Positions 2,228 through 13,343 of a stretch of DNA of 29,889 nucleotides are shown here, in pieces. The notes beneath the pieces are model-generated. The model did no database searches. It was not told the DNA's origin and saw only the letters and a program-made list of their open reading frames with translations. Source of the DNA: a bacterium (GTDB lineage: Bacteria; BMS3Abin14); NCBI GenBank assembly GCA_029210545.1, contig JARGFV010000023.1:1-29889 (forward strand), in the 5' to 3' direction. Position numbers and translations under genes: made by a program. Position 1 is the first letter of the stretch; every line of letters begins with the position of its first letter.

Positions 2228-3475
2228 CTAGAATCGGAACGTCACATCCATGGCAATAAGTGAAATGGAGTTTTTGTACTTTCCATCGAAGAGAGTCGGG
2301 AGAGCGGACGGTTCGTTGGAATCCACAGTCCGGTCTTTCTTTGAGAGCGCCATGTAAGCCAGGTTCACCGCGTAACTGCCTGCGTCGTAACCGCCGCCCA
2401 AGGTGATGCCGGTGGCATCCGCGCCGGGCAGTCTGGGATCAAAGGTCTCTTCCACCACCGGGGTCGGCTCGGTGAGGTAACCGGCCCGTACCGTCCACTT
2501 TTCGTCGATCTTGTACTGTCCTCCGAACCTGATGGCCAGAACGTCCTCGTAATCCTTGTTGATGGTCCGGATGGTGGTGCCGCCATCCTTGAAGACCAGC
2601 TTGTCGTAATCTGACCACTGGGTCTGGTCCAGGTCGAAGTTGAGAGACAGCTGCTCGTTGACCATGTACTGCACACCAATGGCCATGGTGTCCGGGATGT
2701 TTAGATCAACGGAGGCATTGCCGGTGTATGGGGCGCCACCGCTATCCGGGAACATGACGGCCTTGCCCGAAAGTTCCGCTGTCACACCACTGTGCCAGGC
2801 GAAACCGATCCTCAAGGCATCGGCGGGCTGATACAGGCCGCTGAGCACATAACCCAGGCCGTGACCGTCACCTTTCATGGAATAGTCCCACCCTGTGCCG
2901 GCACCGTCCGAAGAACCACCCTTGTACACGACCTTCTGGACATCGTAATATTCCGGGCCGAAACCGACCGAGAACTGGTCGTTGACCCTGTAAGCGGCCA
3001 CCGGAGCGATCTTGGCGATCTCCAAGGTCGTCTCGGTGACGACATCAACCGGATTGAGTGGAGTCACAGTCGTCCTGAAAAAGTCGTTAAAAGGCGCATT
3101 TTCGTTCCACTCCGTCCCCAGGCCAAATGGAGCGTTTATGCCAAAACCAATAAACCAGTCGCTCTCCTTGACCTGGTTGGCGTAAAAGAAATAGGGCGGA
3201 TAGAAAGTCTGTTTTTCCGCACTCACACCCTCAAACTCCGATTCAGGTGTGATGATCGTCAGCCCGGTCATTATCTGGATTCCCTCAAGACCGGTGATGG
3301 CAGCGGGGTTGTGGTGAACGGCGGACGGGTCGTCGGCCTGTCCAACAAAGGCGTTGCCCTGCCCCATGGCAGCAGCACCGCTTTCCGGAATGCGGAATGC
3401 ACCGGCCATGGCCGGGACAACGGCAAGGGCCAGCGCTGCGGCCGTGACCAGCAATACAACCAAGCTTCTTTTCAT
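2228..3475 (-). CDS. FadL/OmpP1/TodX-family outer-membrane transport protein
   Basis: This is a beta-barrel channel for hydrophobic molecules such as long-chain fatty acids, placed in the outer membrane. The 415-residue protein begins with a clear Sec signal peptide (about residues 1-24, basic start, hydrophobic core, AMA cleavage site). It continues with the family's N-terminal plug region, including the conserved NPAAI motif near residue 57, and ends in alternating strands with a terminal aromatic (TFRF), the usual signal for barrel insertion. The start at 3475 has AAGGAG eight bases upstream. A terminator follows. It is a single-gene unit, and its leader runs through a hairpin-repeat array. 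An acyl-CoA synthetase gene starts 2.6 kb away on the same strand, so import and activation of fatty or aromatic acids is a reasonable inference. The exact substrate cannot be read from the sequence. Confidence 0.92.
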   Translation of the reverse strand: MKRSLVVLLVTAAALALAVVPAMAGAFRIPESGAAAMGQGNAFVGQADDPSAVHHNPAAITGLEGIQIMTGLTIITPESEFEGVSAEKQTFYPPYFFYANQVKESDWFIGFGINAPFGLGTEWNENAPFNDFFRTTVTPLNPVDVVTETTLEIAKIAPVAAYRVNDQFSVGFGPEYYDVQKVVYKGGSSDGAGTGWDYSMKGDGHGLGYVLSGLYQPADALRIGFAWHSGVTAELSGKAVMFPDSGGAPYTGNASVDLNIPDTMAIGVQYMVNEQLSLNFDLDQTQWSDYDKLVFKDGGTTIRTINKDYEDVLAIRFGGQYKIDEKWTVRAGYLTEPTPVVEETFDPRLPGADATGITLGGGYDAGSYAVNLAYMALSKKDRTVDSNEPSALPTLFDGKYKNSISLIAMDVTFRF

Positions 3476-4290: not shown

Positions 4291-6126
4291 TCATTCGTAC
4301 AACGAGTCCAGTTCCTTCCAGTACTTCCGTGTGATCTCCTTGCGCTTGAGCTTCAAGGTGGGGGTCACCTCACCCTCCTCCTGGCTGAACTCTTTTTCCA
4401 TGATCCGGAACCGTTTGACCTGCTCATAGGGAGCAAACCCCTCCATGGCGGTGTCGACACGGCTCTGGATAAGCTCCACGATCTTCGGGTGGGAACAGAG
4501 CTCTACCCTCGTCGCGTCCTTTATCCTGTGCTCGGCGGCGTAATTTTCCACCCGCTCCCAGTCCGGGACGATAAGGGCCGAGATGAAATTCCTGGTGTCC
4601 CCGAAGACGAAGGCCTGGTTGATGAACTTGTCCGCTGAAAGGACGTTCTCCAGGGCCGCGGGAGCCACGTTCTTTCCACCCGCGGTGACGATGAGCGACT
4701 TCTTGCGGTCGGTGATAACGAGGGCCCCGTCCTCGTTGAAATGGCCGATATCCCCGGTGTAGAACCAACCCTCCCCGTCGATGGCCTCAGCCGTATCCTC
4801 GGGCCGGTTGTAGTACCCTTTCATGATATTGGGGCCCCGGGCCAGGATCTCACCGTCCTGGGCAATCCGGACCTCGACGCCCGGAACGGGCGGGCCGACG
4901 GTCCCGAACCGGAGCCTCTCGATGGTGTTGGCCGAGATAACCGGGGACGTCTCGGTGAGTCCATACCCCTCGAGAATGAGCAGGCCGGCCGCGTGGAAAA
5001 ATTCGGCGATGTGCTTGTTGAGGGGGGCGCCGCCGGAGATCATCAGGCGGATATTCCCGCCAAAGGTGGTCCGCAACTTGGAGAACACCAGTTTGTCGGC
5101 AATGCGGTGAGCCCTGGCAAGACCGCCGCTCAATGGCTGCCCGTCCTGGAGCTGCCGGCTCACCTTGCTCCCGATCTTCAGACAGGAAGCGAAGATCAGC
5201 CTGCGGACCGCCGAGCTTTCCCGGACCCGGTCAAGGATGCGCCCGTAGGCTTTCTCGTAGATCCGGGGCACGCTGACCATGATGGTCGGGTTCACCTCAC
5301 CCAGGTTCTGAACCACCGAGTCGATATTTTCGGCATAGTTGATGAGCCCTCCCACGTAGAGGAAAAGATATAGAGCGATGCGCTCGAAAACATGGGACAG
5401 GGGCAGGAAAGACAGGCAGCTGTCGTCTGAAGTCACGTGGATGACATCAAGGACTGCCCGGACGTTGGACAGGAAGTTGTCATGGGTCAGAACGACGCCC
5501 TTGGGCTCCCCTGTGGTGCCCGAGGTGTAGATAATGGTGGCAAGGTCGTCCTTCCTGCCCCCGGCGATGGATCGGCCCATGTTCTCCCACACCTCCCGGG
5601 GGGCCTCGTGTCCCAGGGCCACCAGCTCTTCAAGGTACATCACTCCCTCCGGGAGCCGGCGGCCTTCCGGAAGCTGGTCGAAAAGGACGATGATGGTCAG
5701 ATCGGGAAGTTCGCCGCGGATCTTGAGGATCCTGTCCAGGAACTCCTCGTTGGACACGAAGATGGCCCTGGCGGAACAATCCTTGAGGATATACCGGATC
5801 TGGGAGGGCGTCTGGGTCCAGTAAAGGGGAACGACCACTCCCTCCGTGGTGTAGATGCCAAGATCGGCAAACGCCCACTCGGGCCTGTTCTCGGAGAGGA
5901 TCGCGATGGCATCCCCCCTGCCGAGACCCCGCTGTATAAGGCCCCGTGCCACATCCCGGTAGGAACCGGCCAGCTGCTCCCAGGTGACTTCGAGCCAGGA
6001 ACCATCCTGCTTGTAGCGCATGATCGGGCGATCGCCGTAACTTTCGGCCCGGGCGTCCACCATCTGTACGATGGTCTCCTGGTAAGAGCCGGACCGCGTG
6101 GAAGCGGTGCCTCCGGTGTCGGCCAT
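4291..6126 (-). CDS. AMP-forming long-chain fatty-acid--CoA ligase (acyl-CoA synthetase)
   Basis: The enzyme activates a carboxylic acid with ATP through an acyl-AMP to acyl-CoA, at the cytosolic face of the membrane. The 611-residue protein has all signatures of the ANL superfamily in order: YTSGTTGEPKG (about residues 200-210), GYGLTETSP, the FYTGDIG aspartate motif, DRKKSLIVTAGGKN, and a C-terminal LKLKRKEI segment with the catalytic lysine region. The length and the long insert fit the FAA1/long-chain group. The gene overlaps or abuts the upstream gcvH-like gene. The first ATG (6135) overlaps its stop as ATGA, but the third ATG at 6126 has GAGGAGG ten bases upstream and is preferred. Chain-length preference cannot be read. 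The nearby FadL porin suggests fatty or aryl acid use. Confidence 0.93.
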   Translation of the reverse strand: MADTGGTASTRSGSYQETIVQMVDARAESYGDRPIMRYKQDGSWLEVTWEQLAGSYRDVARGLIQRGLGRGDAIAILSENRPEWAFADLGIYTTEGVVVPLYWTQTPSQIRYILKDCSARAIFVSNEEFLDRILKIRGELPDLTIIVLFDQLPEGRRLPEGVMYLEELVALGHEAPREVWENMGRSIAGGRKDDLATIIYTSGTTGEPKGVVLTHDNFLSNVRAVLDVIHVTSDDSCLSFLPLSHVFERIALYLFLYVGGLINYAENIDSVVQNLGEVNPTIMVSVPRIYEKAYGRILDRVRESSAVRRLIFASCLKIGSKVSRQLQDGQPLSGGLARAHRIADKLVFSKLRTTFGGNIRLMISGGAPLNKHIAEFFHAAGLLILEGYGLTETSPVISANTIERLRFGTVGPPVPGVEVRIAQDGEILARGPNIMKGYYNRPEDTAEAIDGEGWFYTGDIGHFNEDGALVITDRKKSLIVTAGGKNVAPAALENVLSADKFINQAFVFGDTRNFISALIVPDWERVENYAAEHRIKDATRVELCSHPKIVELIQSRVDTAMEGFAPYEQVKRFRIMEKEFSQEEGEVTPTLKLKRKEITRKYWKELDSLYE

Positions 6127-6131
6127 GGTCA

Positions 6132-6527
6132 TCATTCCTCCTCACCAAGGTCGGCGATATAATCCTCGTAATCTTCAGGGGCCAGGAGGACATCGAGCTG
6201 TACGGGATCGTCGAGCTCGACCCGGGCCAGCCACCCTTCTCCGTACGGGTCCTCGTTGATGAGTTCAGGATCATCCACAAGGCCGGTCCCGATCGCAATG
6301 ACCGTTCCTGTCACGGGGGCGATGAGATCGGCCACCATCCTGTCCGACTCGATGATCCCGAAGGTTCCAAGGGCCACGATATCGTCATCGATCTCCGGAA
6401 GATCGACAAAAACGATATGGCCAAGTTCTCCCTGGAAGTAGTCGCTGACCCCGATGACCGCCTCGTTGCCCTCGGGTTTCACCCAGAAATGATCTTTCGA
6501 GTAACGGCAGTTCCTGGGAACATTCAT
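6132..6527 (-). CDS. gcvH: Glycine cleavage H-like protein without the lipoyl lysine
   Basis: True GcvH carries lipoate on a lysine and shuttles the aminomethyl group between P, T and L proteins. This 131-residue protein aligns with the family along its full length: SKDHFWV, IGVSDYFQGELGHIVFVDLPE, GIIES, APVTG and NEDPYGEGW. At the lipoyl site, where the family has ESVKA, it reads ESDRM, so Arg63 (codon AGG) stands where lysine should be. It therefore cannot be lipoylated in the normal way. No gcvP or gcvT is in the window; instead the gene is coupled to an acyl-CoA synthetase gene. The ATG at 6527 follows an AGGGGG-type ribosome site. A structural, regulatory or carrier-like role is possible but unproven; the fold assignment is firm, the function is not. 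Confidence 0.85.
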   Translation of the reverse strand: MNVPRNCRYSKDHFWVKPEGNEAVIGVSDYFQGELGHIVFVDLPEIDDDIVALGTFGIIESDRMVADLIAPVTGTVIAIGTGLVDDPELINEDPYGEGWLARVELDDPVQLDVLLAPEDYEDYIADLGEEE

Positions 6528-9346: not shown

Positions 9347-9746
9347 ATGATGAGTTCTCTTCCTACCGGATTATCGGTCAGTAATAAGGTCCTGTTGACG
9401 GGGGCTGGTTTTACAAAAGATTTCGGCGGCTTCCTGGCCAACGAGATATGGAGCTTAATTTTCAACAGCTCATCACTCGAAAATTACCCAAGGATAAAAG
9501 ATATTCTGCGCCGCGATTTTTCCTATGAGTCTGTCTACCATAAGGTGATCGCAGGTGAATACAGTGACGATGAGAAAAGAGCCATCCAAGAGGCAGTGAA
9601 ATCAGCGTATGACATGCTTGACAGCAACATCAGGGAATATAGGCTTAACGTGCCGACCCGTAAAGCCAACTCCACCAGCCTGGCCGCTTTTATAAGGCGA
9701 TTCGGCGGCGCGGGCAATTCAAGTGGGTTTTTCTTTACACTGAATC
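9347..9746 (+). pseudogene. Truncated SIR2-like domain gene
   Basis: About 130 residues look like the N-terminal half of a SIR2-like NAD-binding protein: NKVLLTGAGFTKDFGGFLANEIWSL near the start, a helical middle, and FFFTLNQ, where the family continues with a short acidic motif and the rest of the domain. From about 9745 the frame instead runs on antisense through the end of the nuoF-gltD gene, so the real gene ends there. It is clearly more AT-rich than its neighbours, which points to acquired DNA. SIR2-like proteins of this kind occur in anti-phage defence and as orphans. The start (ATG 9347 or GTG 9344) has no good ribosome site. Family call moderate; truncation well supported. Confidence 0.65.
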
Positions 9747-12700
9747 AGTTTTTCTCATCCAGATCACACCGGAGACAGCGGCGGGCCTCCTTCATGGCCA
9801 TCTCCACGCTAAACCCCAGGTCCACTTCAACCGAGGAATCCAGCCGTCGATGGGCATCGAGGGTAGGCATCTCCGGCCTCACCAGGAGCATGTCGTCGTC
9901 CGTCAGTTTTACGGCTTCAACCGGGTCGATGTCGGGCCTCATGATGTCGTAAAGGGGAGCCACATCCTCCCCGTTTAAAAACAGCTCCATGTGGGCGGCG
10001 GCCCTCTTTCCGGCTGCGATGGCGCCGATGACCATCCAGGGCCCGGTGACCACGTCACCCCCGGCGAAAACTCCCTCGAGGTTTGTCATCTGGGAGAAGG
10101 GGTGGGCCTGGATGGTATTCCAGTCGGTTGTCTCGAGGCCATTTCCTGTTCCAAGGAACGAAAGGTCCGAGCGCCCCCCGATGGCCACGATGAGGTTGTC
10201 CAGCGGGATCTCGAACTCGGAGTCCGGGATCGGGATCGGTCTTTGCCTCCCGCTGGAGTCCGGCTCCCCGAGTTCCATGCGTGTGCAGATAAGGCCTGAT
10301 ATCCGGCCGCCCCTGGTCTGGACCCTCGCCGGTGCCACCAGGGTCTGCAGGTCCACATCCTCCCTGAGGGCTTCGTGGACCTCCATGGCGTCCGCGGGCA
10401 TCTCCTTCTGCGTTCTCCTGTAGAGGATAGCGACGTGTGCCCCTTGCCTGCGGGCGACACGGGCCGCGTCGATGGCGGCGTTGCCGCCGCCCACCACCGC
10501 GGCCCTTTTTCCAAGATGGACATCTTCGCCCAGGTTGATCTTTCTCAGGAACTCCAGGCTCTTGATGACCCCTTCGGCATCCTCACCGGGAATGCCCAGC
10601 TCCTGGTCCACGTGGGCTCCCGTGGCGATAAAGACGGCGGCGTGCTCCCTTCTCACCTGGTCGAAACTCAGGCCGTTGCCGATGGGCGTGTTGTAGTGGA
10701 TCTTCACCCCCATGGACTCGATGAGCCCGATCTCGTGGTTGAGCACGTCCCTGGGCAGGCGGTATTCCGGGACGCCCAGGGTCAGCATGCCTCCGGCGAT
10801 CCTCTGGGCCTCGAAAATGACGGGAGTGAAATCTTTCATGGCCAGGAATGAGGCCGCGGTAAGGCCGGCCGGACCGGCGCCGATGATACCCACCATCTTG
10901 CCTTTGCCCGAGATCTTCCGCGTTTTGACGACGTACTTGCCGGTAATGGCCTCCTTTGCGGCGTTGTCGGCCGCCACCCTTTTCAGGCTGCAGATGCTGA
11001 CGGGCTCGTCCAGGTCAGCCCTTCGGCAAACGACTTCGCACGGGTGGTGGCACACCCTGCCGCAGACGGCCGGCAGGGGGTTCGTCATCCGGATGACATC
11101 CAGGGCTTCGCTGAACCTGCCAAGGGCGATAAGAGCCACGTAGGCCGGGACATCGGTCTCCGTTGGACAGTTGTGCTGGCAGGGGGTGGAGATGATATTC
11201 CGGCAGATGACCGCCGGACAGTGCTTTTCGACGATATGGGCGACGTACTCCTCCCTGAAGTAGCGGAGAGTGGACAGCACCGGGTTGGGCGCTGTCTGCC
11301 CGAGCCCGCACAGGGACAGGCTCTTGATCTGGTGGCCCAGGTCTTCCAGATTATCCAGGTCCTCCATGGTCCCTTCGCCGTCGGTGATCCTTGTCAGGAT
11401 GTCCAGCATGGTCCTGGTGCCCAGGCGGCACGGGACGCACTTTCCGCACGATTCCGAGGTCGTGAAGTTAAGGAAGAACCGGGCCACGTCCACCATGCAG
11501 GATCGTTCGTCCATGATGACGATGCCCCCTGAGCCCATCATGGCTCCCGCCTGGATGAGTGAGTCGTAGTCGATGGGAGTCTCCACGATCCCGGCCGGCA
11601 GGCACCCTCCGGAGGGGCCGCCCAGCTGAGCGGCCTTGAACCTTCCGCCTCCGACGATACCGCCCCCGATGTCGTAGATGATCTCTTTTAACCGTGTTCC
11701 TGCCGGGACCTCGATAAGGCCTGTGTGCCTGATCTTCCCGGTGAGGGCGAACACCTTGGTGCCCTTTGTCCCTTCGGTGCCGATGGAACTGTACGCGTCG
11801 GCGCCGTTGAGGATGATGGGAGGCACACAGGCGAAGGTCTCCACGTTGTTGATGTTTGACGGCTTGTCCCACAGCCCCCGGTTGGCCGGGAAGGGCGGGC
11901 GCGGGCGCGGCATCCCCCTGTCCCCCTGGATGGAGGCCATGAGGGCCGTTTCCTCGCCGCACACGAAGGCCCCGGCGCCCTTCTTGATGCTCAGGGTAAA
12001 GGAAAAATCAGTGCCGAGGATGTTCTCTCCGATAAAACCGCGTTCACGGGCCTGGGCGATGGCGGTCACGAGTCTTTCGATGGCAAGGGGGTACTCGGCG
12101 CGGCAATAGATGTAGCCATATCGGGCACCGATGGCGAAAGCGGCGATGGTCATCCCCTCGATCACCGCGTGGGGATCGCCTTCCAGGACGCTCCGGTCCA
12201 TGAAGGCGCCGGGATCGCCCTCGTCGGCGTTGCAGATGAGGTATTTAGGCTGCCCCGCGGCCTTGGCGCAGAACTCCCACTTCAACCCGGTAGGGAACCC
12301 GCCCCCTCCGCGTCCCCGAAGGCCGGAACTTTTGACGACCTCCCGCACCGTTTCGGGCCTCATCTGATTCAGAGCTTTTTTCAAAGCCTTGTAGCCGTCA
12401 TGGGCAAGGTAGTCGTCGATAAGGTCGGGATCGATGAACCCGCACCTTCTGAGCACCAGCCGGTGCTGCTTTTTGAAAAAATCGATCTCGCTGTAGAGGG
12501 GGATCCCCTCAAAGGGTCTGTCCCCGTTTCCCCCGATCTGTCCGATGGCGTATTCCAGGACCGGTTTGCCGTCGACCAGGTGTTCCCTGATGATACGGGG
12601 GACCATGTCGGGCTGGACCTTGTGGTAGGTCACCCTGGCCCGGTCCGGGATGTGGACATCCATGAGGACCTCCTGGTAGCACATCCCGATGCACCCGGTC

Positions 12701-12831
12701 CTGAGGATCTCCACCTCCCCCTCGATGGAGCCCAGTTCCTCCTTGACCCGAGCGAGGACGCTGTTGGCGCCGGAGGCCAGTCCGCAGGTCCCCATGCCGA
12801 TGATGACGCGTTTGCCGTTGCCGTTATTCAT
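9745..12831 (-). CDS. nuoF: NuoF/HymB-type NADH-oxidising flavoprotein fused to a GltD-type FAD/NAD(P) oxidoreductase
   Basis: Domains in order: a thioredoxin-like [2Fe-2S] domain (1-95; Cys16, Cys47, Cys51, only three cysteines); a NuoF core with the FMN loop GRGGGGFP (173-180), the NADH-site segment NADEGDPGAFMDRS (201-214) and the [4Fe-4S] motif SCGKCVPC (461-468) plus Cys508; a cysteine-rich helical domain as in GltD/DPD (Cys551, 555, 590, 594, 598, 602, 614); and a GltD-like flavoprotein with GAGPAG (651-656) for FAD, GGGNAA (781-786) for a second dinucleotide and GGDVVTGP (924-931). The ferredoxin tail of HymB is replaced by the GltD part. It should take electrons from NADH through FMN and Fe-S clusters to a second flavin, possibly by bifurcation. 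It overlaps nuoE by four bases. No hydrogenase, formate dehydrogenase or NuoG gene is near. Confidence 0.9.
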   Translation of the reverse strand: MNNGNGKRVIIGMGTCGLASGANSVLARVKEELGSIEGEVEILRTGCIGMCYQEVLMDVHIPDRARVTYHKVQPDMVPRIIREHLVDGKPVLEYAIGQIGGNGDRPFEGIPLYSEIDFFKKQHRLVLRRCGFIDPDLIDDYLAHDGYKALKKALNQMRPETVREVVKSSGLRGRGGGGFPTGLKWEFCAKAAGQPKYLICNADEGDPGAFMDRSVLEGDPHAVIEGMTIAAFAIGARYGYIYCRAEYPLAIERLVTAIAQARERGFIGENILGTDFSFTLSIKKGAGAFVCGEETALMASIQGDRGMPRPRPPFPANRGLWDKPSNINNVETFACVPPIILNGADAYSSIGTEGTKGTKVFALTGKIRHTGLIEVPAGTRLKEIIYDIGGGIVGGGRFKAAQLGGPSGGCLPAGIVETPIDYDSLIQAGAMMGSGGIVIMDERSCMVDVARFFLNFTTSESCGKCVPCRLGTRTMLDILTRITDGEGTMEDLDNLEDLGHQIKSLSLCGLGQTAPNPVLSTLRYFREEYVAHIVEKHCPAVICRNIISTPCQHNCPTETDVPAYVALIALGRFSEALDVIRMTNPLPAVCGRVCHHPCEVVCRRADLDEPVSICSLKRVAADNAAKEAITGKYVVKTRKISGKGKMVGIIGAGPAGLTAASFLAMKDFTPVIFEAQRIAGGMLTLGVPEYRLPRDVLNHEIGLIESMGVKIHYNTPIGNGLSFDQVRREHAAVFIATGAHVDQELGIPGEDAEGVIKSLEFLRKINLGEDVHLGKRAAVVGGGNAAIDAARVARRQGAHVAILYRRTQKEMPADAMEVHEALREDVDLQTLVAPARVQTRGGRISGLICTRMELGEPDSSGRQRPIPIPDSEFEIPLDNLIVAIGGRSDLSFLGTGNGLETTDWNTIQAHPFSQMTNLEGVFAGGDVVTGPWMVIGAIAAGKRAAAHMELFLNGEDVAPLYDIMRPDIDPVEAVKLTDDDMLLVRPEMPTLDAHRRLDSSVEVDLGFSVEMAMKEARRCLRCDLDEKN

Positions 12832-13343
12832 TTTGTTCTGGAATCCATTTCCCGCAGGTTTTCCATGATCTTTTGCGCCTTGACAGGATCCAACTGCCCA
12901 TAAGCGTCCTTGTCCACCATGATCACGGGTGCAAGGCCGCAGGCTCCCAGGCAGGCGACCCTCTCGAAGGAAGCGAAAAGGTCTTCCGTGGTCTCACCGT
13001 GGGTGATCCCGAGGATGCTTTCCATCCTGGAGATCACGTTCTTCCCGCCCCTGACGTGACAGGCAGTGCCGGAACAGGCCCTGATGATGTGGCGCCCTCT
13101 GGGTGAAAGGTGAAACTGGGTGTAGAAGGTCATGACGCCGTAGACCTTGCTCCGGTAAACGCCGATCTCGTCGGCGATCATGTTGGCCGCCTCTTCGGGC
13201 ACGTAGCCGTACACGTCCTGGACGTCCTGCAGCAGGGGGATGAGCATCCCTTTCGTGTCCGCGAACCGGGCAAGGATCTCCTGTACCGGTCCCAGGTCCA
13301 GGTTCTCTTCCGGCCCAACCGTTTTACCGAATCCGTTGTCCAC
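12828..13343 (-). CDS. nuoE: NuoE/HymA-type [2Fe-2S] NADH dehydrogenase subunit
   Basis: This 171-residue thioredoxin-fold ferredoxin pairs with NuoF-type proteins in complex I, HydABC hydrogenases and NAD-linked formate dehydrogenases, in the cytosol. It has the helical N-terminal bundle (LIPLLQDVQDVYGYVPEEA), FYTQFHL, the cysteine pair CSGTAC (90-95 region) and the second pair CLGAC, which together hold the cluster. The start is a GTG at 13343 with GGGAGG five bases upstream. The stop overlaps the ATG of the following nuoF fusion, so the two are translated together in fixed ratio. A terminator-like hairpin lies immediately before the ribosome site. Confidence 0.94.
   Translation of the reverse strand: MDNGFGKTVGPEENLDLGPVQEILARFADTKGMLIPLLQDVQDVYGYVPEEAANMIADEIGVYRSKVYGVMTFYTQFHLSPRGRHIIRACSGTACHVRGGKNVISRMESILGITHGETTEDLFASFERVACLGACGLAPVIMVDKDAYGQLDPVKAQKIMENLREMDSRTK

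Follow-up and report, generated by a model that had tools for sequence, protein, structure and literature searches.

An H-protein-like gene that has mostly lost the lipoyl lysine is conserved beside a long-chain acyl-CoA synthetase gene in genomes lacking detectable lipoate machinery

The H protein is usually taught as a passive lipoyl shuttle. The window, by which we mean the whole stretch of 29,889 nucleotides analysed here, encodes an H-like protein with Arg in place of the lipoyl lysine, and raises the question of why such a protein is kept. The first-pass annotation, made from the letters alone, had described likeness to GcvH throughout and an Arg codon (AGG) at the lipoylation site. Both points were confirmed: the gene, which starts with ATG on the minus strand, encodes a full-length H protein of 131 residues. 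It passed the NCBIfam equivalog model for GcvH (TIGR00527) with 122.5 bits against a cut-off of 115.85. The alignment with the pea H protein was gapless over residues 2–123 and placed Arg63 opposite Lys63; hence, pea numbering applies unchanged. In the AlphaFold model (pLDDT 91, pTM 0.83), residues 62–64 join strands 55–61 and 65–69 as the tip of the lipoyl hairpin; the model matched the lipoyl-H structure 1htp with a TM score of 0.98 and an rmsd of 0.8 Å. A search of the source genome (2.7 Mb, 241 contigs, 97% complete) found no second H protein, so that the copy in the window is the only one found and a normal gcvH does not accompany it. The gap of about 680 bp upstream of the gene gave no Rfam match for a structured RNA.

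Table 1. Positions of the H-like gene, its diagnostic codons and its neighbours in the window
Feature	Coordinates	Strand	Evidence
FadL/TodX-type outer-membrane fatty-acid transporter	2228..3475	minus	Toluene_X, E 7.2e-58
Long-chain acyl-CoA synthetase gene	4291..6126 (longest ORF to 6135; likely start 6126)	minus	AMP-binding, E 3.4e-81; AMP-binding_C_3
Orphan lipoate-free H-protein-like gene, 131 aa	6132..6527	minus	GCV_H (residues 8–125), E 1.2e-31; sole H homologue in genome; AlphaFold model
GGAGGA ribosome-binding-type sequence for the synthetase, within the final H codons	6136..6141	minus	
Codon 69 ATC = Ile; other H proteins mostly Tyr/Phe, on the exit path of the arm	6321..6323	minus	
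Codon 63 AGG = Arg at the lipoyl-lysine position	6339..6341	minus	Pea alignment, relatives
Codon 14 TTC = Phe replacing Glu of the HEW motif (aminomethyl-lipoate arm)	6486..6488	minus	Family comparison, PMC7733448

The absence of gcvP and gcvT from the window, noted in the first pass, was borne out for the whole genome. GcvP, GcvT, an LplA/LipB-fold ligase or octanoyltransferase (LplA/LipB/LipM), LipA above the cut-off and a 2-oxoacid-dehydrogenase E2 were each detected in 0 of 13 genomes searched and in none of the 12 genomes of the family described below; the genomes behind these absences include G001 (one contig, 100% complete), G004 and G009 (both 100%) and several incomplete MAGs. As a control, the LplA/LipB-fold model found its target in 13 of 14 control genomes. 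Judged by the length of their frames, matches to PF00364 (biotin/lipoyl) resemble biotin carriers and carboxylases. Neither a loading enzyme nor a client enzyme was detected, so that a lipoyl shuttle could be neither loaded nor used. On the same absences in the family genomes, hidden lipoylation was rejected. Loss of lipoylation in this H family is well supported.

All 11 other family members examined possess exactly one H orthologue each, with 49–69% identity to the protein in the window. The first-pass annotation had asked whether homologues without the lysine form one clade, and the 12 family H proteins did form one group in the tree (support 100/99). Site 63 is Arg in four of them, Lys in three (G004, G005 and G010), Leu in two and Thr, Asp and Gly in one each; it is thus non-Lys in 9 of 12, and ranks fourth in variability among the 131 columns of the family alignment. 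Lys63 is present in 115 of 118 other H proteins. Because three family members keep Lys63, Arg is not the new functional residue, and the spread of residues at this site argues against both a special role for Arg and a reading error. An error in sequencing or assembly could be imagined at codon 63, since the window comes from a draft assembly of 241 contigs, but Arg occurs in three more assemblies, another five have Leu, Thr, Asp or Gly, and a separate collection contains matching loci with Leu (L032) and Gly (L035). We rejected this explanation, whose probability is negligible, because the independent assemblies of relatives vary at the site, which shows that Arg63 is not due to chance or error.

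The family also departs from other H proteins in the pocket that receives the lipoate arm. In E. coli, the aminomethyl group of the arm is held by two residues of the H protein, Glu-12 and Glu-14, and the exit path of the arm is lined by Ser-67, Asp-68 and Tyr-70 (PMC7733448). With the HEW motif and the lipoyl lysine as reference points, the matching residues of the window protein are 12, 14, 66, 67 and 69. Residue 14 is Phe or Leu in 12 of 12 family members, including the three with Lys63; it is Glu in 109 of 118 other H proteins. Residue 69 is Thr, Ile, Ala or Val in the family, compared with Tyr in 56 and Phe in 45 of the 118 others. At five positions (7, 14, 18, 53 and 69) the residues of the family are hardly ever those of other H proteins, and two of these positions belong to the pocket (hypergeometric p 0.012, for positions picked post hoc). 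Separately, three Lys63 H proteins (L022, L153 and L177) have Leu for Glu14; two of them come from ligase-positive genomes (G031 and G022), and they may represent another H subtype.

The retention of Lys63 in three members suggests a further explanation, namely that these are still lipoyl carriers, loaded by an unrecognised enzyme, and that the carrier role was lost elsewhere recently. Alternative machineries such as the LipS1/S2-type pathways do exist (PMC10332631). However, no LplA/LipB-fold ligase was detected in any member with a model that performed well on the controls, no GcvP, GcvT or E2 was detected to use the arm, and Glu14 is lost in the Lys63 members too. We therefore regard a surviving carrier role as very improbable.

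The gene order around the H gene was compared across the family. The first-pass annotation had described a link of 4 bp, or a spacing of 5 bp, to an acyl-CoA synthetase gene, and the junction proved to be as described. In its longest form the synthetase ORF shares 4 bp (ATGA) with the H gene. A start at the ATG 5 bp past the H stop is likelier; it yields a protein of 611 residues, as long as those of G002, G003 and G011. The adenylation motifs of the synthetase were intact when its translation was read by eye. The H gene ends GAG GAG GAA TGA in the window, and 10 of 12 family genomes carry GGAGG at the corresponding position. It had also been asked whether the homologues stay beside an acyl-CoA synthetase gene; the same synthetase orthologue lies directly downstream of H in 12 of 12 family genomes, with 64–78% identity where it is full length. 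In G007 the two genes are separated by 361 bp, and in G008 the H gene is intact and only synthetase residues 17–179 were matched. Nine family loci extend far enough to show what follows the synthetase gene, and in eight of them it is a FadL gene. In the other sampled genomes, by comparison of coordinates, the best synthetase homologue does not adjoin H.

The genes upstream of H differ among family members, being REC-GGDEF/transaldolase, MetF/FolE/LarC/FolD or, in the window, glnS (named from sequence alone). In 7 of 12 members, but not in the window, the gene immediately upstream of H encodes a REC-GGDEF response regulator (L113:8411-9343 and its equivalents). A protein of 215–220 residues with a signal-peptide-like start recurs upstream of H in several family members (L116:6253-6903, L117:1783-2430 and L118:4928-5575); the one copy scanned had no Pfam match.

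The ribosome-binding-type sequence within the last H codons raises the question of whether the H frame is a decaying relic that survives only because its 3' end carries the synthetase ribosome-binding site and translational coupling. The presence of GGAGG there in 10 of 12 genomes speaks for this. In contrast, the dN/dS of the H gene was about 0.09–0.2 (unsaturated pairs only), the 30 invariant columns of the 131 in the family alignment are spread along the whole protein and not just at the 3' end, no stop codon or frameshift was found in the H gene in 12 of 12 family genomes, and the H fold is predicted confidently by AlphaFold. The H gene is under purifying selection, and we consider a relic improbable. 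These results reveal a conserved H protein family on which purifying selection acts even though no lipoate machinery was detected in its genomes.

We propose, as a tentative reading with a probability of about 0.45, that the H fold is kept without lipoate as a protein-binding module whose likeliest partner in this family is the coupled synthetase. The family ancestor would have lost GcvP, GcvT, the E2 proteins and the synthesis and attachment of lipoate, and the H protein would have been retained thereafter under purifying selection with its fold in place. Freed from lipoylation, it would first have lost Glu14 from the pocket (12 of 12), with drift at Lys63 following (9 of 12), in an order that we infer. 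A lipoate-free H protein could not serve as a lipoyl shuttle and would most likely work by binding other proteins. Its partner in this family would be the translationally coupled long-chain acyl-CoA synthetase, together with FadL, and binding would tune the stability, location or activity of the synthetase. The pairing of the two genes in every member and the ribosome-binding site that they share suggest that the synthetase is most likely the best candidate partner. A stronger form appears doubtful: H would have a cofactor-free function of its own and survive, in two or more deep bacterial lineages after the loss of lipoic acid, as a binding protein independent of lipoate, which in this family would be an obligate subunit or regulator of a FadL-fed long-chain acyl-CoA synthetase.

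A close rival is that apo-H has a general lipoate-independent function, for example regulatory or chaperone-like binding, in several lineages without lipoate, and that the synthetase is a mere operon mate; this is quite possible. It draws on a second lineage, consisting of G032 and its relatives in families f22, f271 and f217, which have one clear orphan H orthologue each where one was found. Site 63 is Arg in six of eight of these proteins, Trp in one and Lys in one, and residue 14 is Ser, Thr or Cys instead of Glu. No lipoyl ligase was detected in G032, G171 or G293, and no GcvP, GcvT or E2 in G032. Across the three families the H gene adjoins, and in some cases overlaps, a CCA-adding/poly(A)-polymerase-type gene with PolyA_pol and HD domains (loci L173, L170, L171 and L172); hence, the acyl-CoA link is not general. 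A single clade for both lipoate-free lineages is compatible with the data (p-AU 0.36), being neither shown nor rejected. Divergent H homologues in the ligase-negative genomes G266, G150 and G185 (L184, L186 and L187) also have no Lys at the lipoyl site, where they carry Glu, Ser and Glu, respectively. On the other hand, each lineage has its own tight neighbour, which suggests lineage-specific partners, and no common third gene was identified.

The first-pass annotation had suggested a repurposed H fold acting in acyl activation or as a scaffold. The single clade, the constant synthetase neighbour and the lack of a second gcvH agree with that annotation, and the undetected lipoylation and glycine-cleavage apparatus and the lost Glu14 go further than it did. 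Acyl activation is not supported as put there, given the members with Lys63, the different neighbour in the second lineage and the partial synthetase match in G008. An acyl-activation role would be a guess, and a scaffold or partner role is what we would infer from gene order.

The relation between lipoate attachment and the two residues was also surveyed more widely. At E 1e-3, 49 of 389 genomes had no ligase match; some of these genomes probably have gaps, because their relatives have the ligase. When 40 of the 49 were searched for H, 20 matched, 14 of them strongly. Lys63 was lost in five of seven consistently ligase-free families versus 0 of 23 ligase-positive genomes (Fisher p 1.5e-4), and Glu14 in five or six of seven versus 2 of 23 (p 0.003–0.0003), in a small census whose families (all sampled members ligase-free) were chosen by hand, with neither sampling nor choice blind.

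Comparison with known H-type proteins places the family near GcvH (TIGR00527/PF01597; pea 1htp, E. coli 3a7l), with which it shares sequence, fold, hairpin, the NEDPYGEGW segment and the C-terminal helix. Unlike GcvH, it has no lipoyl lysine in 9 of 12 members and no pocket Glu14 in any of the 12, and its genomes have no detected GcvP/GcvT or lipoylation enzymes. LbpA, the lipoate-binding GcvH homologue of sHdr sulfur oxidation, likewise uses the H fold outside glycine cleavage, but it works only with its lipoyl lysine and with an sLpl(AB) ligase dedicated to it (PMC6067878, PMC10332631). In the family described here no ligase was detected and the lysine is mostly absent, and the neighbours of H in the window are a synthetase and FadL rather than an sHdr gene cluster. 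GcvH-L of the SirTM/macrodomain operon (PMC4518038; S. pyogenes 5a35) is another GcvH-like fold outside glycine cleavage, but its sequence similarity to the window protein is much lower (16% identity, TM 0.76). No sirtuin, macrodomain or LplA gene was found among the annotated neighbours of H (part of the neighbouring ORFs scanned), and LplA was not found genome-wide. Two further models cover GcvH relatives that are annotated as separate from GcvH itself. Membership of TIGR03077 ('not_gcvH') was rejected at 61.6 bits against a cut-off of 144, as was that of NF045810 ('GcvH-related protein') at 39.1 against 150. No report of a lysine-less H protein kept without lipoate machinery was found among the freely accessible papers searched.

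It seems that a well-known carrier protein has a further role independent of lipoic acid. Lineages that keep H under purifying selection without detectable lipoate attachment would show a cofactor-free function of the fold, and such a function bears on unexplained roles of H, for example in a study whose title implies a function beyond glycine cleavage (PMC7868403). There is also a consequence for annotation: the NCBIfam GcvH model passes these proteins, automatic annotation calls them functional GcvH, and glycine cleavage or lipoate use may thus be wrongly inferred for uncultured bacteria.

Elsewhere in the window, the minus-strand interval 9745-13343 contains a NuoF-like protein of 1028 residues fused to a GltD/NfnB-like oxidoreductase. 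Its gene overlaps a NuoE-like gene, and it looks like a flavin-based NAD(P)H/ferredoxin module.
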